In this document: positions 7,918-34,309 of the stretch, piece after piece
Numbering within the stretch: position 1 is the stretch's first letter
How the letters are laid out: each line of letters starts with the position of its first letter
IMG/VR virus record: IMGVR_UViG_3300009184_000086
Coordinates: 1 to 40,749 of that record
Source: a virus
Length of the DNA stretch: 40,749 bases
Strand: one strand, 5' to 3'
The notes under the pieces: model-generated
What the model saw: only the letters and a program-made list of their open reading frames with translations
What the model was told of the DNA's origin: nothing
Databases searched by the model: none
Translations under genes and position numbers: made by a program

Positions 7918-8244
7918 ATGAAAAATCCCGATCATCTAGATGTACTATACGCCGCCGCGGTTGCAGCAGTGCCTGTAATCGTGGCTATGTGGCTTTACTT
8001 CCGCAAACGCCCAAAGTTAGTTGACTTAGATGATCACGCTAGTGAGGTAACTCAGCCGGGCTTTCTAACAGAAAAGATAATAGAATGGGCTAAAAATGTA
8101 CGCCGCTATAGGCCCTTTCGTTTTAGCGAGGTGGCTATCGCTTTCCCTGAGTACGACACCAGAACACTAAGACAGGCAACAAAGACTCTATTATACAAAG
8201 GGCACCTCCGCCAAAACAAAGCCGGCTGGATGAAAGTAAACTAA
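7918..8244 (+). CDS. Membrane-anchored winged-helix-like protein
   Basis: 108 aa, first gene of the rightward operon. Residues about 9-27 (VLYAAAVAAVPVIVAMWLY) form one membrane helix followed by RKR, which suggests a cytoplasmic C-terminus. Residues about 48-106 look like a winged helix: a RYRPFRFSEVA helix, a RTLRQATKTLLYKGHL recognition-type helix, then a short wing ending in GWMKVN. The ribosome site is weak (GAAAG). It might tether phage DNA or the replication complex to the inner membrane. Confidence 0.6.
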   Translation: MKNPDHLDVLYAAAVAAVPVIVAMWLYFRKRPKLVDLDDHASEVTQPGFLTEKIIEWAKNVRRYRPFRFSEVAIAFPEYDTRTLRQATKTLLYKGHLRQNKAGWMKVN

Positions 8245-8245
8245 T

Positions 8246-8551
8246 ATGGTATACATCTTACTAAAAGGTAAAGAAGACGCACGGGCCTTCATTGGTTTTG
8301 AGGGCGATGAGTGGAAGGTTGTGGCTAAACTAGCAGAGGCCCATGTGTTTTTAGAGCCTCTCGAAGCCGAGGATTTTGTAGCAGAGCAGGCGGAGTACAT
8401 CGGCGAAGACGGCTGGGCGCCTTACATAGTGCAACCCTCGCTAGCAGCCAAGGTCGATAAGCACCTTGAGACTTTAAGAACCCAGGTAGACACCACTAAA
8501 CAAGAATATCAAGACAACGTGATCAAGCCACAAAAACTTAAACGGAAATAA
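8246..8551 (+). CDS. Hypothetical protein
   Basis: 101 aa, begins one base after the preceding gene. The N-terminal 70 residues are alpha/beta and acidic. The last 30 form a charged helix ending in KLKRK. No known domain. It sits immediately before the SNF2 helicase, so it may assist it. Confidence 0.55.
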   Translation: MVYILLKGKEDARAFIGFEGDEWKVVAKLAEAHVFLEPLEAEDFVAEQAEYIGEDGWAPYIVQPSLAAKVDKHLETLRTQVDTTKQEYQDNVIKPQKLKRK

Positions 8552-8555
8552 TTCT

Positions 8556-9896
8556 GTGAAAATAAAAAACGCAAACCTTAGACCGTACCAAATAGAAGGT
8601 GCACGGTTTTTAGAGCGCAACAAGAATGCGCTCCTGGCCGATGAGATGGGTTTAGGCAAAACAGTTCAGGTCATCGCTTGGCTTAATAGCTGCGTGCCCC
8701 AAGGTTTGACTGCTAGGGTATTAATCGTGTGCCCGGCGAGTCTTAAGATAAATTGGTGCAAAGAGTGGAAAGACAAAGCGCTGTCGGATCTAAGTATTGA
8801 CTATGCACACGGCGCCTACTTTCCAAAGACCGACATTGTAGTTATTAACTACGACATTCTGCACAAACACCGCGACGCTTTGCGCGCCTTCACTTGGGAT
8901 GCGGTGGTGTTAGATGAAGCGCACTACATCAAATCCCATGACTCGCGCCGGACCATCGAGCTTCTCGGCAGCCGCAGCAAAGGGATACCCGCCATAAAAA
9001 CACGCCGCCGTGTAGCCCTGACAGGTACCCCAATACTTAACCGCCCAATCGAGCTTTACACAATGTTGTATTGGCTCGGCCTAGACATGCCCGCACGGCA
9101 TGAGTTTGCCCTACAATACTGCGGAGCGAAGCTAGTTGAGAAATACGTCCGTGGCGGACGTCGCGTAAAAATGTGGTGGTATAACGGCGCCACGAATATC
9201 AGCGAACTAAGGCAGAAGTATTTAGCCCCCATCATGTTAAGGCGCTTAAAAGATGACGTACTGCAGGATTTGCCCGAGAAGATCAAGCAGGTTGTCGAGT
9301 TGCCAAACGTAAAGACGCGCCTCCCCGTAAGCCGGACATTCCGGTCCGGGGAAACTTTTGAAGAAGTCGTAGCCATACTGCAAAAAGAATTCCCAGAGGC
9401 TATGGACAGCATCCCCACACAGCGTAAGGAAGAGGGCCTGGCAAAGGTGCCTACAATTATCGAGCACCTGCATGACTGCTTGGAGGTTGAGGAAAAAGTA
9501 GTTTGTTTTTGCTACCATCGCGACGTGGTGCAAGCCCTAATGGAAGAGTTTGGTGATGACGCTGTTTGCGTGATTGGTGGCATGAGTGCTGAGGCCAAGG
9601 ACGAAGCAGTTGAGCAATTCCAAAAAGGAACTAAAAGACTTTTCATTGGCAACATCACAGCGGCAGGAGTTGGCTTGACTTTGACGGCCTCTCGGTTAGT
9701 AGTATTTGCGGAGCTGTCTTGGGTCCCTGGCGAGATACAACAAGCCGAAGACCGCTGCCACCGCTTCGGCCAGCGCGACACCGTTCACGTGCAATACCTT
9801 GTTGCCCACGATAGCGTTGAGGCATTCATGGCTGAGATACTCGTTCGTAAAAATAAAATTTTGGAAAAGGTCTTAAAGCCGATTCCTAGAAAGTAA
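8556..9896 (+). CDS. SNF2-type DEAD-like helicase/ATPase
   Basis: 446 aa, GTG start. Superfamily 2, SNF2 group: Q-motif region LRPYQIEGARFL (8-19), motif I ADEMGLGKT (28-36), motif II DEAH (120-123), motif III TGTP (156-159), and motif VI around QAEDRCHRFGQRD (about 396-408). It has both RecA-like lobes and almost nothing else, as in other phage versions next to polymerase and nuclease genes. It probably moves along DNA to remodel replication or recombination intermediates. It is the largest ATPase of the rightward operon. Confidence 0.93.
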   Translation: MKIKNANLRPYQIEGARFLERNKNALLADEMGLGKTVQVIAWLNSCVPQGLTARVLIVCPASLKINWCKEWKDKALSDLSIDYAHGAYFPKTDIVVINYDILHKHRDALRAFTWDAVVLDEAHYIKSHDSRRTIELLGSRSKGIPAIKTRRRVALTGTPILNRPIELYTMLYWLGLDMPARHEFALQYCGAKLVEKYVRGGRRVKMWWYNGATNISELRQKYLAPIMLRRLKDDVLQDLPEKIKQVVELPNVKTRLPVSRTFRSGETFEEVVAILQKEFPEAMDSIPTQRKEEGLAKVPTIIEHLHDCLEVEEKVVCFCYHRDVVQALMEEFGDDAVCVIGGMSAEAKDEAVEQFQKGTKRLFIGNITAAGVGLTLTASRLVVFAELSWVPGEIQQAEDRCHRFGQRDTVHVQYLVAHDSVEAFMAEILVRKNKILEKVLKPIPRK

Positions 9897-9898
9897 AC

Positions 9899-10306
9899 AT
9901 GAGAGCAACATCAACCACAACAATGAAAGAACTCGTCCTTGCAGTCCGGGCGCTAACCGCCCAACTGGAAAGACTAACGGCTGGAGGGCCAGTACCTTCG
10001 GCACCTAGCAACGCAGAAACGCCAACACCGAAACCCAGTGTCGCAGCAGAAACCGCTGAACCAGAAAAAGCAACGCCGCCAGTCAAACAGAAGTATACGT
10101 TTGACCAGATAAAGAATACACTGCTTGATTGCAGTGCGCGCTTCGGCGTAGATGTCGCCCGGGAACTCTTGGCCAAGGTCGGATGCGACCGCGTAAAGAG
10201 CCTATCCGAAAGCGATTACCCGGTGTTGATGAACCACATCGAAGAATACCTGACGAAGTACACGGCAGCAAACCCCGACCTACCTCAGGTAGGCAAAGAT
10301 GAGTAG
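9899..10306 (+). CDS. Rrp5-like small phage replication protein
   Basis: 135 aa. A short coiled coil (about 9-27) is followed by a proline/alanine-rich linker (about 30-64) and a compact helical domain (about 66-122: YTFDQIKNTLLDCSARFG ... LMNHIEEYL). Proteins with this C-terminal domain sit beside phage ssDNA-binding and nuclease genes and are often called Rrp5-like by weak similarity. They are probably DNA-replication accessories. The spacing of two or three bases on either side marks it as part of the operon. Confidence 0.6.
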   Translation: MRATSTTTMKELVLAVRALTAQLERLTAGGPVPSAPSNAETPTPKPSVAAETAEPEKATPPVKQKYTFDQIKNTLLDCSARFGVDVARELLAKVGCDRVKSLSESDYPVLMNHIEEYLTKYTAANPDLPQVGKDE

Positions 10307-10309
10307 GCC

Positions 10310-11518
10310 ATGTCTAAAGCCCACAAGAGACTTTCGCCAAGCGCTGCCCATCGTTGGATGGTTTGCCCGGCAGAGCCAAACCTAAGGGATTCATTGCCGC
10401 CTCCGCCGGATACTGATTTCTCTAAGGAGGGGACGACGGCGCATTGGGTGGCTGAGCAATCTATTACTCTCGGGGCTGAGCCTCATGAGCTAGTGGACAA
10501 AGTCTGCCCTGATACCGGGGTAACTGTAACTGAAGAGATGGCCGATGCGGTAAAAGTGTATGTCGATGAGGTTAGCCGGCATAAAGGCTTTTCTCGTACC
10601 GAAACGCGCTTTAACCTGGCTGAGGTTCATCCTGACATTGGAGGTACATCGGACTATTGCGTCTATGTTAAGGAGGAAAAAACCCTATACGTTTACGACT
10701 ACAAGCACGGCCAAGGCGTGTTTGTTGAGGTAGATGATAACCCCCAGCTTAAGATTTATGGACTCGGGGCGGCAGCCGCCATCGCTTCTTTGATCGGAGA
10801 GCCGCTTGAGAAGCTAATTGAGCACATAGATTTTTACGTAGTTCAGCCCCGGCACCGTGGTGGGAGTGAGCCTATTAGGCACAAACGCTACGAATTAAAG
10901 GATGTAATTTATTGGCGTGATAAAGTGCTCAAGCCAGCGGCAGAAGCCACTGACGCACAGCCTCCAAAATTTGTTGCAGGAGAACACTGCCGCTTTTGCC
11001 CAGCTTTGGGTATCTGCCAAGCAGCTCGTAATCACGCAGCAGAATTAGCAAAAGTAGATTTCAACCGCGTCGTGTTGCCATCACCGGCGCTTCTTTCCCA
11101 GAAAGATAAAGCCAGGATACTACAGGCAGAGGAGCTTATTAGCGCCTGGTTTTCTGCAGTACGGGAACAAGCGTTCAATGATTTGCAGCGCGGCGTGGCT
11201 GTACCAGGATTTAAACTGGTGGCAAAGCGCGCTAACAGACAGTGGATTGACGAAGCTCAAGTCGAAGCAGTTCTAACAAAACGGCTTGGCCAAAAGGCTT
11301 TCATTAAGAAACTTCTTTCCCCAGCGCAGGCAGAAAAAGAACTGGGCAAAAAGGAAGGCAGTGCTCTAGTAGACCAGCTGACCTTTAAGCCCGACAATGG
11401 CGTAACGATTGCACCTGAAGAGGACCGCCGTCGTGAAGCAACCGCAGGAGCAGTTGCGGATTTCGATGATGTTGTACTCGCTGCTCCGAGTACGACGCAA
11501 AAAACACTAAAAAAATGA
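10310..11518 (+). CDS. DUF2800 Cas4/RecB-like nuclease
   Basis: 402 aa. PD-(D/E)XK nuclease fold: D115 in GGTSDYCVYV, then D130-Y-K132 in YVYDYKHGQG. Four cysteines, C19, C227, C230 and C236, fit the iron-sulfur-cluster arrangement of Cas4/AddB-type nucleases. DUF2800 members are widespread in phages and are thought to process DNA ends for recombination. Its end overlaps the ssDNA-binding gene by ATGA, as expected for an exonuclease and binding-protein pair. Confidence 0.9.
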   Translation: MSKAHKRLSPSAAHRWMVCPAEPNLRDSLPPPPDTDFSKEGTTAHWVAEQSITLGAEPHELVDKVCPDTGVTVTEEMADAVKVYVDEVSRHKGFSRTETRFNLAEVHPDIGGTSDYCVYVKEEKTLYVYDYKHGQGVFVEVDDNPQLKIYGLGAAAAIASLIGEPLEKLIEHIDFYVVQPRHRGGSEPIRHKRYELKDVIYWRDKVLKPAAEATDAQPPKFVAGEHCRFCPALGICQAARNHAAELAKVDFNRVVLPSPALLSQKDKARILQAEELISAWFSAVREQAFNDLQRGVAVPGFKLVAKRANRQWIDEAQVEAVLTKRLGQKAFIKKLLSPAQAEKELGKKEGSALVDQLTFKPDNGVTIAPEEDRRREATAGAVADFDDVVLAAPSTTQKTLKK

Positions 11519-12069
11519 CAACAGAAAAAAAGAAATCTCTAGTAACCCCGGAAGGCCGCGTAAGCTTTCCTGACGTCTTCAAGGGCAAACCTTCGGAGAA
11601 CGACCCAAATACAACAGTGCGCGAAGTGACTCTGCTAATTCCAAAGACGCAGAATATCGACGTGATTAAGAACGCAGTTCGCGCTGCGGTAGAGGCTAAG
11701 TGGCCGGATGCTAAGAAGCGCCCGGGCAATCTAGCCTTGCCAATACGCGATGGCGATACTGAGAAGCCCCATCTTGATGGCTATGCCGGTCACTGGTTCA
11801 TGGCATTCCGTTGCCGTAACCGTGTGCCCGGACTTGTAGATGCATCAAAGCAGGCAATCGTTAATCCCGACGAATTCTACGCCGGCTGTTTTGCGCGTGT
11901 GAGCTTCGATGCTTACGCCTACGACAACGCCAAGAAAAAAGGTGTTTCTCTAGGGCTTAACAATATTATGAAGACCAAGGAAGGTGCACGCTTCGGTAAT
12001 GCCGTGGCGTCAGCCGAGGATGACTTTGCCGATGTCCGCACGGCAGATCAAGACGACCTGTTTAATTAA
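11515..12069 (+). CDS. ssDNA-binding protein (DUF2815 family)
   Basis: 184 aa. It follows the DUF2815/Enc34 pattern: VTPEGRVSFPDVFKGKP at the start, REVTLLIPK, an LDGYAGHWFMAF core and VSFDAYAYDNAKKKGVSLGL late. OB-fold ssDNA-binding proteins of this type coat phage single strands. The tail ends in acidic TADQDDLFN, like the protein-docking tails of T7 gp2.5 and other SSBs. It is coupled to the DUF2800 nuclease and lies upstream of the polymerase. Confidence 0.88.
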   Translation: MTTEKKKSLVTPEGRVSFPDVFKGKPSENDPNTTVREVTLLIPKTQNIDVIKNAVRAAVEAKWPDAKKRPGNLALPIRDGDTEKPHLDGYAGHWFMAFRCRNRVPGLVDASKQAIVNPDEFYAGCFARVSFDAYAYDNAKKKGVSLGLNNIMKTKEGARFGNAVASAEDDFADVRTADQDDLFN

Positions 12070-12113
12070 GTGGACAACAGGGGCCGCGCATCTGGCAAAA
12101 CGCGGAGATATTA

Positions 12114-12395
12114 GTGACTGAACAAGAAAACCTTCGACTTAAAGACGCCTGTTTTAGGTGCTTCGTTGCCCTCATACAAAGAGCTGTAGAGGATTACGTG
12201 GCTGACGTTAAAGACATGCAATGTCTTAGCCGAAGAAAACCCAAGCGCGAAGCCGTCGAGTTTTATGAAAGCGCCCGGTGGTTCTTGTTTTCTCCCGACG
12301 GCCTCGAGCACCTGATCGAAAAGTACGAAATGCAATACCACATAAAGATTGACGCAATACGCCACAGGGCAAACCAAATAAAAAAATGCAAATAA
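12114..12395 (+). CDS. Hypothetical helical protein
   Basis: 93 aa from a GTG at 12114, with GGAG 8 bases upstream. The 44-base gap before it can form a hairpin, CCGCG (12084-12088) with CGCGG (12101-12105), whose right arm touches the ribosome site and could limit translation. Mostly helical, three cysteines, basic C-terminus. It overlaps the polymerase start by 10 bases. Not recognised. Confidence 0.55.
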   Translation: MTEQENLRLKDACFRCFVALIQRAVEDYVADVKDMQCLSRRKPKREAVEFYESARWFLFSPDGLEHLIEKYEMQYHIKIDAIRHRANQIKKCK

Positions 12396-14341
12396 CCTTT
12401 GATATAGAAACACGCAGTTGCGCCGACTTAAGAGACATCGGCGTTTATAAATACGCCGAAGATGCTTCAACTGAGATACTCTGTGCTGCTTACAAGGTAG
12501 ATGATCAGCCAACTAAAGTTGCAAAGCTATCTTCTGCCGACACAGTAACTGAAGTAGACGGTAGCCTTGAAGAGCTCTTGGCGTTGATGGCCAAGGCCGA
12601 TCACATACACGCACATAATGCCGGGTTTGAGCGAACCCTGTGGCACTACGTGATGTACAAGCGTCGGGGTTACCCGGACGTTCCTATTTCTAAGTGGCGT
12701 TGCTCCATGGCCGTAGCCGCCGCCCATGCCCTCCCTTTAGGGCTAGAAGCGGTCGGCCAGGCTCTCGGCCTTCGCCAACAGAAAGACCTCGCCGGCGGGG
12801 CTATAATGAAGAAATTCTGCGCTCCGGTGCGAAGCGGAGCTTGGTATGAAGAAACTGATAATTTCGAGCCCAAAGACTGGGTAACTTTGTATGAGTATTG
12901 CAAACAAGACGTAGAGACAGAGCACGAGTTGATAAAAAGCATTAGGCCCCTAAGACCTTTTGAGCAGCGTGTTTGGGAGGTTGATCAGAAAATAAACGAC
13001 CGTGGCGTTTCCGTGGCCCATGATGAAGCCAAACGCCTACAGGCGCATGTACGCGCAGCCGAAGCTAAATACGACGCTGAGATAGTTGAATTAACCGGCG
13101 GGAAAATACAATCTGCCCGGCAGCTAAAAGTGGGCTCGGATTGGCTTAAAGAGCATGGCATGCCGACTGATGAGCTAACAAAAGGTAAGGTGGCAGAACT
13201 CCTGAAGGAAACTTCTATTGACCCAAAGGCCAAACGCTTCCTAGAAATTCGTCAGTCCGTCGGCCTTACAAGTACTGGCAAAATCGACGCAATGGTCGCA
13301 GCTGCAAACTCAGACAGTCGTATCCGTGGGTGCTTTATGTACCACGCGGCAACGACCGGGCGTTGGGGCGGCCGTCTCATTCAGCCGCAGAACTTTCCAC
13401 GCAACTGCTTCAAAGAGATAAAAGAGATACAAGATGTTGCGGCGCAGCCAACGGAGGCGGTCGAAGCCAAGTACGGCTGCCCTATCAAAGCTGCCTCGCG
13501 CTGCCTGCGCGGGCTGCTTCGCCCGCCCGCTGGTAAAGTATTCGTCGGCGGGGACTATAGCTCCATCGAGGCGCGCATTACCGCCTGGCTTGCGAAGGAG
13601 AAGTGGGTGCTTGATGAGTTTGTGTCCGGTCGAGACATGTATAAAGTCGCTGCCGCAAAGATATTCAACATCGCTTACGAGGCTGTATCAAAAGATCAGC
13701 GGCAACTAGGCAAGGTTGCTGAGCTGGCACTAGGATACCAAGGCTGGCTCGGGGCTTTTAAAAACATGGCCGCTGCCTACGGAATGGAGATACCCGACGA
13801 ACAAGCTAAGCCAATTATCTTGGCCTGGCGCGAAGCACATCCTGCCACCGTAAGGCTCTGGGACTCCGTCGAGCAGGCAGCGTTTCGTGCCGTCGATGAG
13901 GGGAAAACTTTTGAGGTGGGGCCTGTGATGTTTGGCGCTAAAGACAATTTCCTGTGGTGCCGTTTACCAAGCGGCCGCCTCTTGGCTTACCACCGCCCAC
14001 ACATCACAGAAGTAACCCGGCCACAGGGTGTTCGGAAAGCGATTGGCTTCTACGCCGTGGATTCATACACAAAAAAGTACAGTCTTCAAACAACGTACGG
14101 CGGGTCATTAGTTGAGAACATAGTCCAGGCAATCGCCCGTGATATTTTGGCTGAAGCGCTGGTTCGCTTAGATATGTTTGGCTATGATCCTGTGCTCCAC
14201 ATTCACGACGAAATTATTTGTGAGGCGGAGAACCCTGATCTTGAAGAGTTTCAACGATTGATGATAACGTTACCCAAATGGGCCAAGGGAATACCCCTGG
14301 CTGCCGGATGCGAGATTAGCGAAATGTACACGAAAGATTAA
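12386..14341 (+). CDS. Family A DNA polymerase with 3'-5' exonuclease
   Basis: 651 aa. The N-terminus is a DnaQ-like proofreading domain with D6-I-E8. The palm has motif A with D390 in VGGDYSSIEARI. The finger helix RQLGKVAELALGYQG is present in place of the usual RRxxKxxNFGxxYG, and motif C is H607-D608-E609. No 5'-3' exonuclease domain. This is the replicative polymerase of a phage of this size. The AEP domain encoded at 1172-3160 would prime for it. Confidence 0.95.
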   Translation: MQITFDIETRSCADLRDIGVYKYAEDASTEILCAAYKVDDQPTKVAKLSSADTVTEVDGSLEELLALMAKADHIHAHNAGFERTLWHYVMYKRRGYPDVPISKWRCSMAVAAAHALPLGLEAVGQALGLRQQKDLAGGAIMKKFCAPVRSGAWYEETDNFEPKDWVTLYEYCKQDVETEHELIKSIRPLRPFEQRVWEVDQKINDRGVSVAHDEAKRLQAHVRAAEAKYDAEIVELTGGKIQSARQLKVGSDWLKEHGMPTDELTKGKVAELLKETSIDPKAKRFLEIRQSVGLTSTGKIDAMVAAANSDSRIRGCFMYHAATTGRWGGRLIQPQNFPRNCFKEIKEIQDVAAQPTEAVEAKYGCPIKAASRCLRGLLRPPAGKVFVGGDYSSIEARITAWLAKEKWVLDEFVSGRDMYKVAAAKIFNIAYEAVSKDQRQLGKVAELALGYQGWLGAFKNMAAAYGMEIPDEQAKPIILAWREAHPATVRLWDSVEQAAFRAVDEGKTFEVGPVMFGAKDNFLWCRLPSGRLLAYHRPHITEVTRPQGVRKAIGFYAVDSYTKKYSLQTTYGGSLVENIVQAIARDILAEALVRLDMFGYDPVLHIHDEIICEAENPDLEEFQRLMITLPKWAKGIPLAAGCEISEMYTKD

Positions 14342-14344
14342 GCA

Positions 14345-14746
14345 ATGAATTACCTAGTATCTGTATACACCACACCCCAGACCCGAAGCTACTTAGCGTG
14401 CACCAAAGCAGGAGGTACTTTTTTGGTACCGCAAAAACAGATGGCGACTGCATTTTCTTCTGAAGAAGCAAAAAGAAAAAGTATTATCTTTGCTGAGCTT
14501 GGTTTTGTGGCAGTCTATGAACGGGATTCACGCGTAGATCACATCATCATAGCCAGGGCGCGCAAGCAGAACGCAGAGTTTAAATACGTCCTCGGCGCAA
14601 GCGGCGGGCTGTTTGCCGCCAAAAATAACGGCGCTCTGAAGATATATGTGGGCAAAGACTACGACGTTTCTGAGAAGATAAAAGAGCTTACCGAGTCTTT
14701 TCCTGATTTTTACTTTAAGGCCCAAGCCTTAACCCAACAAATATGA
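14345..14746 (+). CDS. Hypothetical protein
   Basis: 133 aa, starts three bases after the polymerase and overlaps the next gene by ATGA. Alpha/beta, no membrane segment. It has a glycine-rich GASGGLFAAKNNG segment at about 84-96. No family recognised. Position suggests a polymerase- or nucleotide-related accessory. Confidence 0.55.
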   Translation: MNYLVSVYTTPQTRSYLACTKAGGTFLVPQKQMATAFSSEEAKRKSIIFAELGFVAVYERDSRVDHIIIARARKQNAEFKYVLGASGGLFAAKNNGALKIYVGKDYDVSEKIKELTESFPDFYFKAQALTQQI

Positions 14747-15372
14747 CAAACGATGAATTCAACAACGTCGCCAACGGCCGCTATGCTGCCGAGGGCGCGC
14801 CCCTAGCGGCGCACATACCGACCCCGGACAGCGTTTATAAACCGCTTCCGGCTTTTGAAATATGGTCCGAAGAAATAGTACCCGCATTGGCGAAACTGCG
14901 GGATGCTATTTTCAAAGGTCGTCCCTGTCTTTCGGCGATGAAAGAAATCCACCTGCGCACCTACGAGCTGGAGCTTTCGCTACTTTATCCCGGCTTTTAT
15001 ACTCAGCCGGAGTCCGCCGACGCCGATGTACAAAAGGACAGACAATACGTTCCTTCAGAAGTTCCCGCCAAGGAAGTAGAGCGGATTGTGGCTCGCCGTC
15101 GTGTGCAAGACATTGAGGTACTCACCGCCAAAAATAAATCTTACGCCAGCGATAGCGACAAGCTCTCTAACTTCAAAGCAGCTGCAAAGTACAGCTTTAG
15201 CGAGACCGGAGCTTTGTGGGGTTTTTTAGTTAAGCACATCGTATCGGTTGAAGAAATCGTACTTGGCACGAAGCCTGCCACTCAGGAATTTATCGACGAG
15301 AAGCTAGGAGATTTTCGCCGCTATTTGATCTTGCTTGAAGCGCTGTGGCTTGAGATGTACATGAACAGCTAG
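14743..15372 (+). CDS. Nucleotide-modification-associated (DUF1599-like) protein
   Basis: 209 aa. The C-terminal domain (about 126-205) has the pattern K-NKSYASDSDKLSNFKAA, then WGFLVKHIVSV and EKLGDFRRYLILLEAL, with N143, E186 and D190 as likely metal ligands. This resembles the MazG-like DUF1599 (nucleotide modification associated) fold, found with phage base-modification or nucleotide-pool enzymes. The N-terminal 120 residues have no known match. No modification enzyme is seen nearby except the methyltransferase at 5886-6404. Confidence 0.7.
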   Translation: MTNDEFNNVANGRYAAEGAPLAAHIPTPDSVYKPLPAFEIWSEEIVPALAKLRDAIFKGRPCLSAMKEIHLRTYELELSLLYPGFYTQPESADADVQKDRQYVPSEVPAKEVERIVARRRVQDIEVLTAKNKSYASDSDKLSNFKAAAKYSFSETGALWGFLVKHIVSVEEIVLGTKPATQEFIDEKLGDFRRYLILLEALWLEMYMNS

Positions 15373-15376
15373 GAGT

Positions 15377-15541
15377 ATGAAACCCGTAACCGCTACGCGC
15401 CTTCTGGCTTTGCAGCTTAAGCTTAGGGTGACTTCATCTGAGCTGACTAGTATCCAAAACGAGAACGTAAAGAAGTGCGCCGAGGACATTATATCCGTGG
15501 CGAACGAGCTTCGTAATCTAGCAAGAACCCCACCGGCATAA
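15377..15541 (+). CDS. Small helical protein, end of rightward operon
   Basis: 54 aa, four bases after the preceding stop. AGGAG precedes the ATG but with only one base between, so initiation may rely on coupling. It is one predicted helix (TRLLALQLKLRV ... IISVANELRNLA) with two prolines at the end. It is the last gene of the rightward operon; its 3' end lies in the left arm of the hairpin at 15528-15554. Unknown function. Confidence 0.5.
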   Translation: MKPVTATRLLALQLKLRVTSSELTSIQNENVKKCAEDIISVANELRNLARTPPA

Positions 15542-15554
15542 AACACCGGCGGGG
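15528..15554. terminator. GC-rich hairpin between convergent operons
   Basis: CCCC-A-CCGG (15528-15536) pairs with CCGG-C-GGGG (15546-15554), eight pairs and one mismatch, around a nine-base loop. It begins in the last codons of the plus-strand gene and lies between convergent operons. No T-run on either strand, so termination would be Rho-assisted or not intrinsic. Confidence 0.45.
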
Positions 15555-15580
15555 CAATCAAAGAAGATACGCATCTAATC

Positions 15581-15898
15581 CTACTCGAATTGCGCCATCC
15601 AATCTGCGGTTGGCGCGATTTTTGTTTTAGTAGATTTTGCTTTGTAGCCGCCTTCATCGTGCAGGTATCGAATGGCGCGATCATGCTTTACTCCGAGCTT
15701 TTCAGCCAGGGTAATACGAGTCTCGTGTTCGTCGACACGCTCTACGATAGCGCTGTCATTCTGACGTAGGTTATTGACTTTGGTGTCGACGTCGCCGTGA
15801 CGCCAGCCCAAATAGCCACCCAGAAGGGCGCCAGCGGGGCCGAGAAGGGCTAGACCGGCTAAAGCGCCGCCGCCCGTGATGAGTGTAGTAGTTTCCAT
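15581..15898 (-). CDS. Glycine-rich membrane protein, possible holin
   Basis: 105 aa. Residues about 5-32 (LITGGGALAGLALLGPAGAL plus LGGYLGW) are glycine/alanine/leucine-rich, like a membrane-inserting or glycine-zipper segment. Behind it is a charged region with a coiled-coil-like stretch (NNLRQNDSAIVERVDEHETR). It lies apart from the late operon, past its terminator, in the minus direction. It could be a second holin, a membrane toxin or a tail-associated protein. Confidence 0.5.
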   Translation of the reverse strand: METTTLITGGGALAGLALLGPAGALLGGYLGWRHGDVDTKVNNLRQNDSAIVERVDEHETRITLAEKLGVKHDRAIRYLHDEGGYKAKSTKTKIAPTADWMAQFE

Positions 15899-16001
15899 TG
15901 TTTTGCGTTTTGTGCCGGCTTAATTGCCAACACCTAATTAAACGGCGCCTTCAGATATAAATTAAGCAAGTTAGAGCTATTAACAATTTCTTTACAACTG
16001 C

Positions 16002-16065
16002 GGGGTGAGAAGGGATTGAACCCCCAACTATGGGCTTTGGAGACTGCCTATTGAGCTACCACCCC
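16002..16065 (-). tRNA. tRNA-Trp(CCA)-like gene lacking 8 nt
   Basis: On the minus strand the acceptor arms GGGGTGG and TCACCCC pair over 7 bp. T8, A9, GCTC, the D-loop AATAGGCA, an anticodon loop CTCCAAA (anticodon CCA at 16040-16038), GCCCA, and a T-arm GGGGG-TTCAATC-CCTTC are all in order, followed by G73. The 3' side of the D-stem and most of the 5' side of the anticodon stem are missing, so the gene is 64 nt instead of about 72. The gap looks like one clean 8-base deletion. No CCA is encoded. It may be a pseudo-tRNA, an attachment-site remnant or a real but unusual tRNA. Confidence 0.75.
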
Positions 16066-16107
16066 AAAATGAAAAGCCCTCGCCAACGTTTTAAGTCGGT
16101 GAGGGCT
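16066..16107 (-). terminator. Intrinsic terminator of the leftward late operon
   Basis: On the minus strand the stem AGCCCTC-ACC / GGC-GAGGGCT (7 bp, one mismatch, then further pairs) is followed by TTTTCATTTT (16075-16066). No T-run lies on the plus strand side, so it acts leftward. It lies 109 bases past the end of the last lysis gene and directly before the tRNA-like gene. It would end both the late operon and any transcript from the promoter at 16185-16212. Confidence 0.75.
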
Positions 16108-16178
16108 CAATGCAAGAAGGCTTTGGAAACGCAAATAACCTTAGCCGAAAAGGAGACTTTCAGTTTCCCGTAGTCTCA
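16070..16178 (-). ncRNA. Candidate small RNA of about 110 nt
   Basis: The unit runs from the promoter at 16185-16212 (predicted start about 16178) to the terminator at 16066-16107. At the 5' end GAGACT (16177-16172) pairs with AGTCTC (16158-16153), then comes a weakly structured middle with a CCTTTTCGG stretch, then the terminator stem. 5' hairpin, open middle and intrinsic terminator are typical of bacterial regulatory small RNAs. No open reading frame of sense lies in it. No known family is recognised. Confidence 0.6.
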
Positions 16179-16184
16179 AACGCA

Positions 16185-16212
16185 ATCATACTATAACACG
16201 CAAAACTGTCAA
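16185..16212 (-). promoter_or_regulatory. Strong sigma-70-type promoter, leftward
   Basis: Minus strand: perfect -35 TTGACA (16212-16207), a 16-bp spacer, and -10 TATGAT (16190-16185, five of six consensus bases). It begins three bases after the stop of the lipoprotein gene and faces away from it. Nothing but the candidate small RNA lies between it and the terminator at 16066-16107. Confidence 0.7.
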
Positions 16213-16215
16213 GCG

Positions 16216-16482
16216 TTATTTTTGCAACTCGTCTTCGTACCCTACAATCGTCTTGAGTATTTTTCGCCAATCTTCTTTATATTTGGCTAATACTTCCGCA
16301 TTAGAGGTAGTGTCAATAAAAAGCGGCATTTTTAGCACTTCAGCCGAAAAATCCCGCTCTATAGCGCCCGTAAAGGCGCTTTTAGATGGAGGGGGTGGGG
16401 TAATGCACCCGCTAAGCGGCAGGAGGACTAGGAGGCCCGTCCAGAGCATCGTCAATGCGCTTAAGCTTTTTGGCTTTGTCAT
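16216..16482 (-). CDS. Outer-membrane lipoprotein, possible o-spanin (Rz1-like)
   Basis: 88 aa. Positively charged start (KPKS), hydrophobic h-region (about 10-22), lipobox LSGC with the lipidated C26, then ITPPPPSK, the proline-rich stretch typical of Rz1-type outer-membrane spanins. The rest is a charged helix. It overlaps the 54-aa gene at 16412-16576 in another frame, an arrangement reminiscent of Rz/Rz1. It is the last gene of the late operon, three genes past the holin. Confidence 0.7.
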   Translation of the reverse strand: MTKPKSLSALTMLWTGLLVLLPLSGCITPPPPSKSAFTGAIERDFSAEVLKMPLFIDTTSNAEVLAKYKEDWRKILKTIVGYEDELQK

Positions 16483-18349: not shown

Positions 18350-19807
18350 TTATGAACCGTAGTTTAAATAGGCTTTATCTATCCACACAGAGCGCGTGGC
18401 TGGATTTGTTCCGTTTGATTGGATGCGGGCGTAAGCCAAGTTGAAAGCAATCGACAGAGCCGGGGTAGTAGCGCTTATGCCGCTGCCCTGCTCAACGCCA
18501 TTGATAAAGTAACGACACACGCCCGAACCTGAAAATAGAATTTGAAGATCGATAGCAGTTCCAGTAGCTACGGCCACGGAGGTGTTAAATACTGTTTCAG
18601 AACCTGCGCCATTGTCCATAACACACACCCAGTTACCTGAATTTTCTGCGTGATTATAGCGGAAGAAGGCGGCGCGTTCACCGTTCCACCACCCTTGACC
18701 CAGCAGCAAAGTATAGTTGTTAGTGGCGTCTGAAAGGGTTTGAAGATGGATGCGCAGCCTTATATCTATTGGGCAGCCCCAGCGGCCGGTCTGGTCGTTG
18801 CCGTCTCCGCCGTACGCTCCTCCGTAGTACATCGTAGCACTGGCGCTTGCCGAAGTTCCGGCACGAAGCTCAAGCCAGCCTAAATTTACATTTTGATCAC
18901 GCACAGGACCGCCACTATCGCCGGTCCAAATCGACGCGACCGAGCCTGTACCGTTGGTTTCGCCACGGAAACCCGATATGGCAACCGTGCTACTTATTTC
19001 AAAGAAATCGCTTTTTACTTCAGTAAAAGAAAACGGCGAACTGGCCGACCCGGCGAATTTGCCGGCTTTTACTACTATCTTTGTGCCAGCCGCCATTGCG
19101 CCACCGACGGTTAAAACAGAAGACGAAGTTCTGGTTAAAGTACTTTTTGCCTGATTTACGCCATCAAGAAAACACTCGATGTAGTCTAGGCTAGTCGGCA
19201 AAGAATCGATACTGGGAGTGACAGTGATGGCCGTCTGACCTTCAGTGGCGGTGCCTTCGTAGGTGGCCACAACAACATTAGCTGCGGCGTTTACGGCCGA
19301 TGTGGCAGAAGCTGCGGCTTCATCAGCACTGTTTAACGCAGAGGCTTCAGAAGCAGCGGCTGAATTGGCGCTACTTGTTATTGAAGCCAATAAATCATCA
19401 GGCAGAATGCCGCTGCCCAATTCTGATTTTAAGCAGCGGTCTATTTGCTCTTGAAGTTGCTGATCGATAATGCGGCTTTCGTCGGCCGAGCTTTCGTGAG
19501 TTTCTGGAAAGAACCCGCCTTGATTATTGAAATCGCGCTTCTGAAGCAGCGGATAATTAGGGGTTAAAGTAAGCTTTTCCCCCGTGGCTAGGACTACCGT
19601 AAGCGTTACATACCAAGTCGCCGTATCTGAATTACTAACGCCGCTTACTGTGTAATCGGAATCAACCACTAAGGTCGATACAACCCCAGCAACCGAAGTC
19701 TTTGTGACCGCCACATAGGCTTTGTTAGCCAGGGGGAAACCGTAGGCAAAAGGCCCCGTAAGGCCGCTTCCAGTGTACTCGGAACGATAATTTGCCGCGT
19801 TAATCAT
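18350..19807 (-). CDS. Tail fibre protein with T7-gp17-like N-terminus
   Basis: 485 aa. Residues 1-135 match the virion-anchoring domain of T7-type fibres: YTGSGLTGPFAYGFPL, then DYTVSG, LTPNYPLLQKRDF and a conserved helical DESRIIDQQLQEQIDRCL. An alanine/serine-rich helix (about 135-180) follows, probably the trimer shaft. The C-terminal part (about 255-485) is beta-rich with jelly-roll-like repeats (GSGVCRYFINGVEQGSG), suggesting a lectin-type tip. The promoter at 19822-19849 may drive it together with the two genes downstream. Confidence 0.82.
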   Translation of the reverse strand: MINAANYRSEYTGSGLTGPFAYGFPLANKAYVAVTKTSVAGVVSTLVVDSDYTVSGVSNSDTATWYVTLTVVLATGEKLTLTPNYPLLQKRDFNNQGGFFPETHESSADESRIIDQQLQEQIDRCLKSELGSGILPDDLLASITSSANSAAASEASALNSADEAAASATSAVNAAANVVVATYEGTATEGQTAITVTPSIDSLPTSLDYIECFLDGVNQAKSTLTRTSSSVLTVGGAMAAGTKIVVKAGKFAGSASSPFSFTEVKSDFFEISSTVAISGFRGETNGTGSVASIWTGDSGGPVRDQNVNLGWLELRAGTSASASATMYYGGAYGGDGNDQTGRWGCPIDIRLRIHLQTLSDATNNYTLLLGQGWWNGERAAFFRYNHAENSGNWVCVMDNGAGSETVFNTSVAVATGTAIDLQILFSGSGVCRYFINGVEQGSGISATTPALSIAFNLAYARIQSNGTNPATRSVWIDKAYLNYGS

Positions 19808-19821
19808 ACGTCGTTTTGCAT

Positions 19822-19849
19822 AGTATATATCATGCCCAATCTCTGTCTA
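19822..19849 (-). promoter_or_regulatory. Possible leftward promoter for fibre and lysis genes
   Basis: Minus strand: TAGACA (19849-19844, five of six), 16-bp spacer, TATACT (19827-19822, five of six). Predicted start about 19815, only eight bases before the fibre ATG at 19807, so the mRNA would have almost no leader. It begins just past the stop codon of the 1933-aa gene. Confidence 0.55.
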
Positions 19850-33730: not shown

Positions 33731-34309
33731 TTAAATCATTTCTCTGACATCTACCCACGTGCTATCTATCCACATCTTTGCCCATTCACCGTTTTTAGGG
33801 TTTTTGCCGGGGAGCCTAAGGGTAGTCGAGCTATAAAAAGGCCCAACGTTGGCTCGCTGAATAACGCCGGGGCGCACAGAAAAGTTGTAGCCTTCGTTCA
33901 GTCCCGTAACGTAAGCAAACGCATCATCTTCAGTTTTTGGCGTTTCAAAAATAATCCACAGGTGAAAACTTCCGTATGAGGTAGATTTTTCTACAAAAGC
34001 CTCGTGGCCGGCCGATGCCGCCAAAGATAAAACCAAAGTTTCGTTTAGCCCCAAAAGCGCGGTGTCGTTAACTCTGCCATCGATGTCAAAGCCGACCCAA
34101 CGGCAGAATCCGGCGCCATTGATAGCAGTAACGGCCAACGTCTCTGCGCCGTTGCAGTGCGCGTCGATTATATCTTCGCTATACTCCTCGGGATAATAAT
34201 GCTTAATCGGAGAAGAAGCGCCGCGCCAAGGCGCTGCTTTTCGGCGCATCAGCGTATCGCGGAAACCAATCGGGCATATCTTCTCAGAAATAAAATCTTT
34301 TAAGGTCAT
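33731..34309 (-). CDS. AEP primase-like (TOTE-type) protein in head module
   Basis: 192 aa. The order of motifs is that of archaeo-eukaryotic primase (AEP) domains of the TOTE type: GFDID with D75 and D77, then STSYGSFHLW with S111 and H116, and LRLPGKN (164-170) with R165. This would be the catalytic core for making primers, though the domain is short and the C-terminus is truncated compared with classic primases. It lies amid head genes, coupled by ATGA to the collar-domain gene. It differs from the AEP domain at 1172-3160. Confidence 0.7.
   Translation of the reverse strand: MTLKDFISEKICPIGFRDTLMRRKAAPWRGASSPIKHYYPEEYSEDIIDAHCNGAETLAVTAINGAGFCRWVGFDIDGRVNDTALLGLNETLVLSLAASAGHEAFVEKSTSYGSFHLWIIFETPKTEDDAFAYVTGLNEGYNFSVRPGVIQRANVGPFYSSTTLRLPGKNPKNGEWAKMWIDSTWVDVREMI

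Follow-up and report, generated by a model that had tools for sequence, protein, structure and literature searches.

The short intergenic gap examined here raises the question of whether a promoter and a terminator that face the same way, about 110 nt apart, form a gene for a small RNA or merely accompany the end of a late operon. The window, that is the whole stretch of DNA analysed, is 40,749 bases long and corresponds to the entire IMG/VR virus record IMGVR_UViG_3300009184_000086, a phage known from environmental DNA alone. Among its genes, those for the virion belong to the BPP-1/epsilon15 type (portal, PHROG 332; capsid, PHROG 212; tail, PHROG 376) and the capsid is 66% identical to that of Bordetella phage BPP-1. 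The replication set is made up of a family A DNA polymerase, a helicase, an exonuclease, an SSB, and a primase. Replication genes run rightward (7918-15372) and converge with the late genes, which run leftward from 39287 to 16216.

Intergenic DNA represents 8% of the window, and the stretch from promoter to terminator, hereafter the unit, is found within a gap of 317 nt (Table 1). The unit comes directly behind the lysis-type genes; the last leftward ORF before it, 88 aa long, gave no match when Pfam and PHROG were searched. On the far side of the gap, the plus-strand terminator of the replication operon overlaps the 3' end of the 105-aa ORF.

Table 1. Features of the unit and of its surroundings (positions in the window).
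Feature	Position	Strand	Description
Intrinsic terminator, strong	15582-15626	+	-19.6 kcal/mol; ends rightward replication operon at convergent junction
ORF, 105 aa	15581-15898	-	N-terminus glycine-rich, membrane-like; lies beyond unit and tRNA-like element
Degenerate tRNA-Trp(CCA)	16000-16065	-	RF00005, 25.8 bits vs. gathering cut-off 29
Intrinsic terminator of unit	16066-16108	-	13-bp stem, one mismatch, 7-nt loop, U-rich tail UUUUCAUUUU; z -6.1
Middle stretch	16109-16152	-	Weak or no structure; candidate pairing region; z -0.4
5' hairpin	16153-16177	-	GAGACU...AGUCUC, GAAA-capped inner stem; z -2.9; 6/500 shuffles fold as well
-10 element	16185-16190	-	TATGAT, 5/6, 16-bp spacer from -35; sequence match
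-35 element	16207-16212	-	TTGACA, perfect match; sigma-70-type
ORF, 88 aa	16216-16482	-	Last leftward ORF before unit; lipoprotein-like N-terminus; spanin-like by inspection only

Promoter, terminator, and the chance of their pairing

The original prediction started from a leftward promoter with a perfect -35 box, and both boxes and their spacer are indeed found where it placed them. TTGACA-16-TATGAT (16212-16185) is the sole 11/12 sigma-70 match on both strands of the 40.7-kb window, and transcription is predicted to start at about 16178-16176. A stand-alone sRNA gene should have its own promoter, and the unit has one as a sequence match, not as an activity. By chance, a window would contain about 0.5-0.7 promoters scoring 11/12 or more. 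Taken without the terminator behind it, the promoter could therefore be a chance match. Five of the 12 top promoter-like sites of the window are intergenic, a placing consistent with genuine sigma-70 promoters in this phage.

Two further observations concern transcription signals. An inverted repeat, TAACGC-N13-GTGTTA (16194-16218), spans the -35 box and TTGCGTTT recurs around the locus; together, these repeats are a possible operator. Farther along the late genes, a promoter-like TAGACA-16-TATACT (19822-19849, minus strand) is located in a 47-nt gap just ahead of the tail-fibre ORF (18350-19807) and might allow separate transcription of the tail-fibre and lysis-type genes.

The intrinsic terminator that had been announced about 110 nt past the promoter was confirmed, with a folding energy of -21.9 kcal/mol that none of 500 shuffles equals. 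Its layout is GAGCCCTC-A-CCGAC-loop-GTTGG-C-GAGGGCTT, followed by TTCATTTT, and the tail is not one long U-run. A simple terminator scan missed it because of the internal A/C mismatch. Among the minus-strand candidates identified in the window, this hairpin has the lowest energy and is the best one outside genes; the next (-21.2 kcal/mol) is inside a gene. Its distance from the promoter is within the 50-300 nt expected of a stand-alone sRNA gene. Both signals were also considered jointly. The pair was defined as a promoter matching 11/12 positions or more with, at most 220 nt behind it, a terminator that folds at -18 kcal/mol or lower. In 100 windows simulated with an order-2 Markov model, such pairs arise at a rate of 0.01 per window, and there is none in the 2.4 Mb of 168 related viral loci, which hold 30 promoters of equal quality. 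Hence, the pairing is unlikely to be due to chance.

The late genes share the strand of the unit and continue directly into it, and the strongest terminator after them is that of the unit. Since late transcription would enter the unit and reach the same hairpin, the terminator likely also ends the leftward late mRNA. Thus, the idea that the unit is not just the tail of the late operon is upheld only in part, as the terminator would serve both transcripts. A simpler account is that the late-operon terminator alone is functional, the promoter-like site being a chance match or making a short RNA devoid of function. This account, which we regard as rather unlikely, agrees with the direct run of late genes into the terminator, with the number of such promoters expected by chance, and with a transcribed part that shows no conservation in the relatives searched. 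It leaves aside that the promoter falls in the small intergenic part of the genome, in the right orientation, 4 nt past the stop codon of the 88-aa ORF and just before a terminator, and that the 5' hairpin beats chance.

Fold, coding potential, and the adjoining tRNA-like element

For the 112-nt RNA (about 16178 to 16067), the predicted folding energy is -38.4 kcal/mol (z = -3.6), mostly owing to the terminator, whose pairs form in the full-length RNA with a probability of 0.82-1.0. The expected succession of a 5' hairpin, a loose middle, and a 3' terminator was recovered, as the z-scores of the three parts indicate (Table 1).

The unit had also been described as encoding no protein, and this was borne out: no credible ORF is found in it. 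With a minimum length of 12 aa, the minus strand holds an ORF of 14 aa with a TTG start and another of 28 aa extending across the terminator, and the plus strand holds ORFs of 47 and 28 aa. No support was found for any of the four. A very short protein made from the unit or from its complement (plus-strand ORF 16030-16173 or 16110-16196) appears scarcely credible. A GAGG does occur a few bases ahead of the ATG of the plus-strand 28-aa ORF. However, this ORF has no plus-strand promoter and lies opposite the terminator stem; the rightward operon, for its part, ends at a separate terminator.

No Rfam 15 family scores above its gathering cut-off anywhere in the window, and at E-values up to 5 the tRNA-like element is the sole plausible match in the window. 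These searches bear on another account, that of a leader with an attenuator: the promoter would drive the 105-aa ORF and, in the past, also the tRNA, with the hairpin (16108-16074) setting the amount of read-through. The 105-aa ORF is indeed downstream on the same strand; ahead of it no separate promoter-like site reaches 10/12, and its transcription would need read-through or a separate promoter. Nevertheless, no competing antiterminator fold is found, the leader offering only short pairing to the 5' arm of the terminator, and the riboswitch and T-box families give no match with E relaxed to 5. For these reasons the attenuator account is disfavoured and we hold it to be unlikely; moreover, the stretch from the terminator to the ORF holds a tRNA remnant, unlike a leader.

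The element next to the unit had been called a tRNA-like gene, and its tRNA was one of the things that the unit was suggested to tune. It does resemble tRNA-Trp, since it weakly matches phage tRNA-Trp genes, from which its identity as tRNA-Trp(CCA) is taken, but it is degraded. Its acceptor and T arms are intact. In a hand alignment with canonical tRNA-Trp, it is about 8 nt short and lacks the 3' arm of the D-stem and most, or part, of the anticodon stem. ARAGORN does not detect it in normal mode, only in mitochondrial mode. A functional tRNA-Trp should form a complete cloverleaf scoring above the cut-off, and this element does not. It is most likely a tRNA remnant and, judging from its sequence, probably not functional. 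Use of the remnant as an attP site was considered and is disfavoured: no integrase was recognised among the scanned ORFs of at least 250 aa of the window.

The middle of the unit holds GTTTCCAAAGCC, identical at 11 of 12 positions to GTCTCCAAAGCC of the anticodon region of the tRNA-like element. Of 1000 shuffles, 11 score as high, 24 of the 1111 other segments of the window equal the resemblance, and the statistics are weak for a likeness noticed post hoc. One could imagine that the unit is tied to the tRNA-like element and makes an RNA, derived from a tRNA or imitating one, that disturbs host tRNA-Trp or ribosomes. A parallel has been published, sRNA2 of phage PAK_P3 (PMC4933390), and the shuffling result lends this idea something; we nevertheless find it very unlikely, given that the likeness covers 12 nt only, that the remainder of the unit does not align, and that other segments of the window do as well. 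Equally conditional, and quite remote in our estimation, is the idea that the RNA carries a look-alike of the tRNA-Trp anticodon loop and, with the adjoining remnant, would act on host translation or tRNA-Trp, by analogy with PAK_P3 sRNA2.

Distribution among related phages

At the DNA level, neither a 3.7-kb region around the unit nor the unit alone found anything but short tRNA-Trp matches and chance hits among 50,697 phage records. The exact tRNA-like pattern is absent from the viral contigs searched. Relatives were sought with the portal, the 88-aa ORF, and a 1933-aa protein, and with capsid and DNA polymerase alignments. The portal, capsid, and polymerase scans gave more than 240 related loci, and the unit is in none of them. 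The nearest proteins among the relatives are 69% (capsid) and 42% (polymerase) identical to those of the phage, none of them accompanied by the unit. With no match at the DNA level and only distant relatives by protein, this phage stands without close known kin.

Further comparisons gave the same picture. Against 43 whole related records, the DNA of the unit found only two chance matches of 14-15 nt, and low-stringency blastn gave no match to the unit in 3.9 Mb. A covariance model built on the single sequence and run over 1.34 Mb recovered the window itself and one marginal match, also in the window, but no second copy. This marginal match (15520-15617, minus strand; 19.7 bits, E 0.42) is at the convergent junction and consists of two hairpins with a similar CUUCUU linker between them; it is probably unrelated to the unit.

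As for the neighbourhood, tRNA genes are present in 1 of the 43 related records. In three relatives that keep the convergent gene order (L184, L189, and L207), the junction has little or no gap and no unit, and at the junctions of five relatives no promoter-like site has a terminator behind it. Because the relatives are devoid of the unit and the junctions of the three syntenic ones are tight, the unit, the tRNA remnant, and the 105-aa ORF together look like a lineage-specific insertion with a moron-like pattern.

A candidate small RNA gene and its known counterparts

The pairing of promoter and terminator, the 317-nt gap, the lack of coding, and the fold z-score of -3.6 favour a small RNA gene. 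On the other side, the terminator by itself is explained by the late operon, and no relative searched carries the unit, which leaves its stems without support from covariation. With its signals and predicted fold, the small-RNA reading is the likeliest, and we give about an even chance to its full form, in which the unit would be a lineage-specific small non-coding RNA gene acting in trans by base-pairing. In this proposed mechanism, host RNA polymerase with the main sigma factor would start at about 16178 and stop at about 16073-16066, giving an RNA of 105-113 nt. Its ends would be shielded by the 5' hairpin and the terminator hairpin, and its loose middle (about 16152-16109) would be the part pairing with another RNA. 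Because the promoter looks host-type, sigma-70 transcription would supply the RNA in early infection and thereafter. At later stages, transcripts of the late operon would cross the unit and end at the same terminator, so that the unit would double as a separate RNA gene and as the 3' end of the late mRNA.

The most likely role would be base-pairing in trans on a host RNA. Pairing with the 49 start regions of the phage itself, scored by plain duplex energy without accessibility, is no better than that of shuffled RNA (35 of 60 shuffles as good), which makes host RNA the likelier class of target.

Bands C and D of phage T4, which map beside the T4 tRNA genes, offer a first comparison. Like the RNA predicted for the unit, these small stable RNAs belong to a virulent phage and are located by tRNA genes. 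In contrast, the T4 RNAs were isolated as molecules, whereas the unit is predicted and its adjoining tRNA is a remnant. According to a study of 2016 (PMC4933390), bands C and D were the only small RNAs known earlier from virulent phages and their functions were unknown. The same study describes PAK_P3, a virulent Pseudomonas phage with two late-induced small RNAs, sRNA1 and sRNA2, seen by RNA-seq; sRNA2 is between phage tRNAs and has 11 nt identical to the T-loops of host tRNAs (PMC4933390). Both resemble the unit in being intergenic, about 100 nt long, and carried by a virulent-type phage, and sRNA2 further shares with it a position beside phage tRNA genes and a short stretch in common with tRNAs. 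The likeness is drawn as an analogy, and the unit differs in being known from sequence alone and in its host-type promoter.

Two other systems share part of the arrangement. AgvB and AsxR are Hfq-bound "moron" sRNAs of about 54-60 nt, found downstream of PR' in lambdoid prophages (PMC4104026). As proposed for the unit, a terminator-ended small RNA is inserted by late genes at a gene junction. However, the unit is longer, and Hfq binding and a prophage state are known for AgvB and AsxR, while no integrase was recognised here among the ORFs scanned. MicX is a bacterial sRNA made from the 3' end of an mRNA, with its own promoter inside the ORF, as shown experimentally (PMC9438474). The unit would likewise share the terminator of an mRNA, but it starts after the last ORF whereas the MicX promoter lies within one.

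Our best guess as to kind is a base-pairing RNA of the sort of PAK_P3 sRNA2 and T4 bands C and D. The unit would probably join a known, sparse kind, the phage-encoded intergenic small RNAs (for a review see PMC12197685), with no new system. Known small RNAs of virulent-type phages are few, and the unit, a prediction from a single genome, is a compact candidate with clear statistics, located next to a tRNA gene in decay. It also provides a simple search recipe: intergenic gaps of phages in which a strong promoter is followed about 110 nt later by a strong terminator.

A minor observation was made elsewhere in the window. A 192-aa ORF (33731-34309, minus strand) matches the archaeo-eukaryotic primase domain of TOTE conflict systems (PF22548, E 1e-7) and stands inside the virion gene block, an odd site for a primase-like domain.
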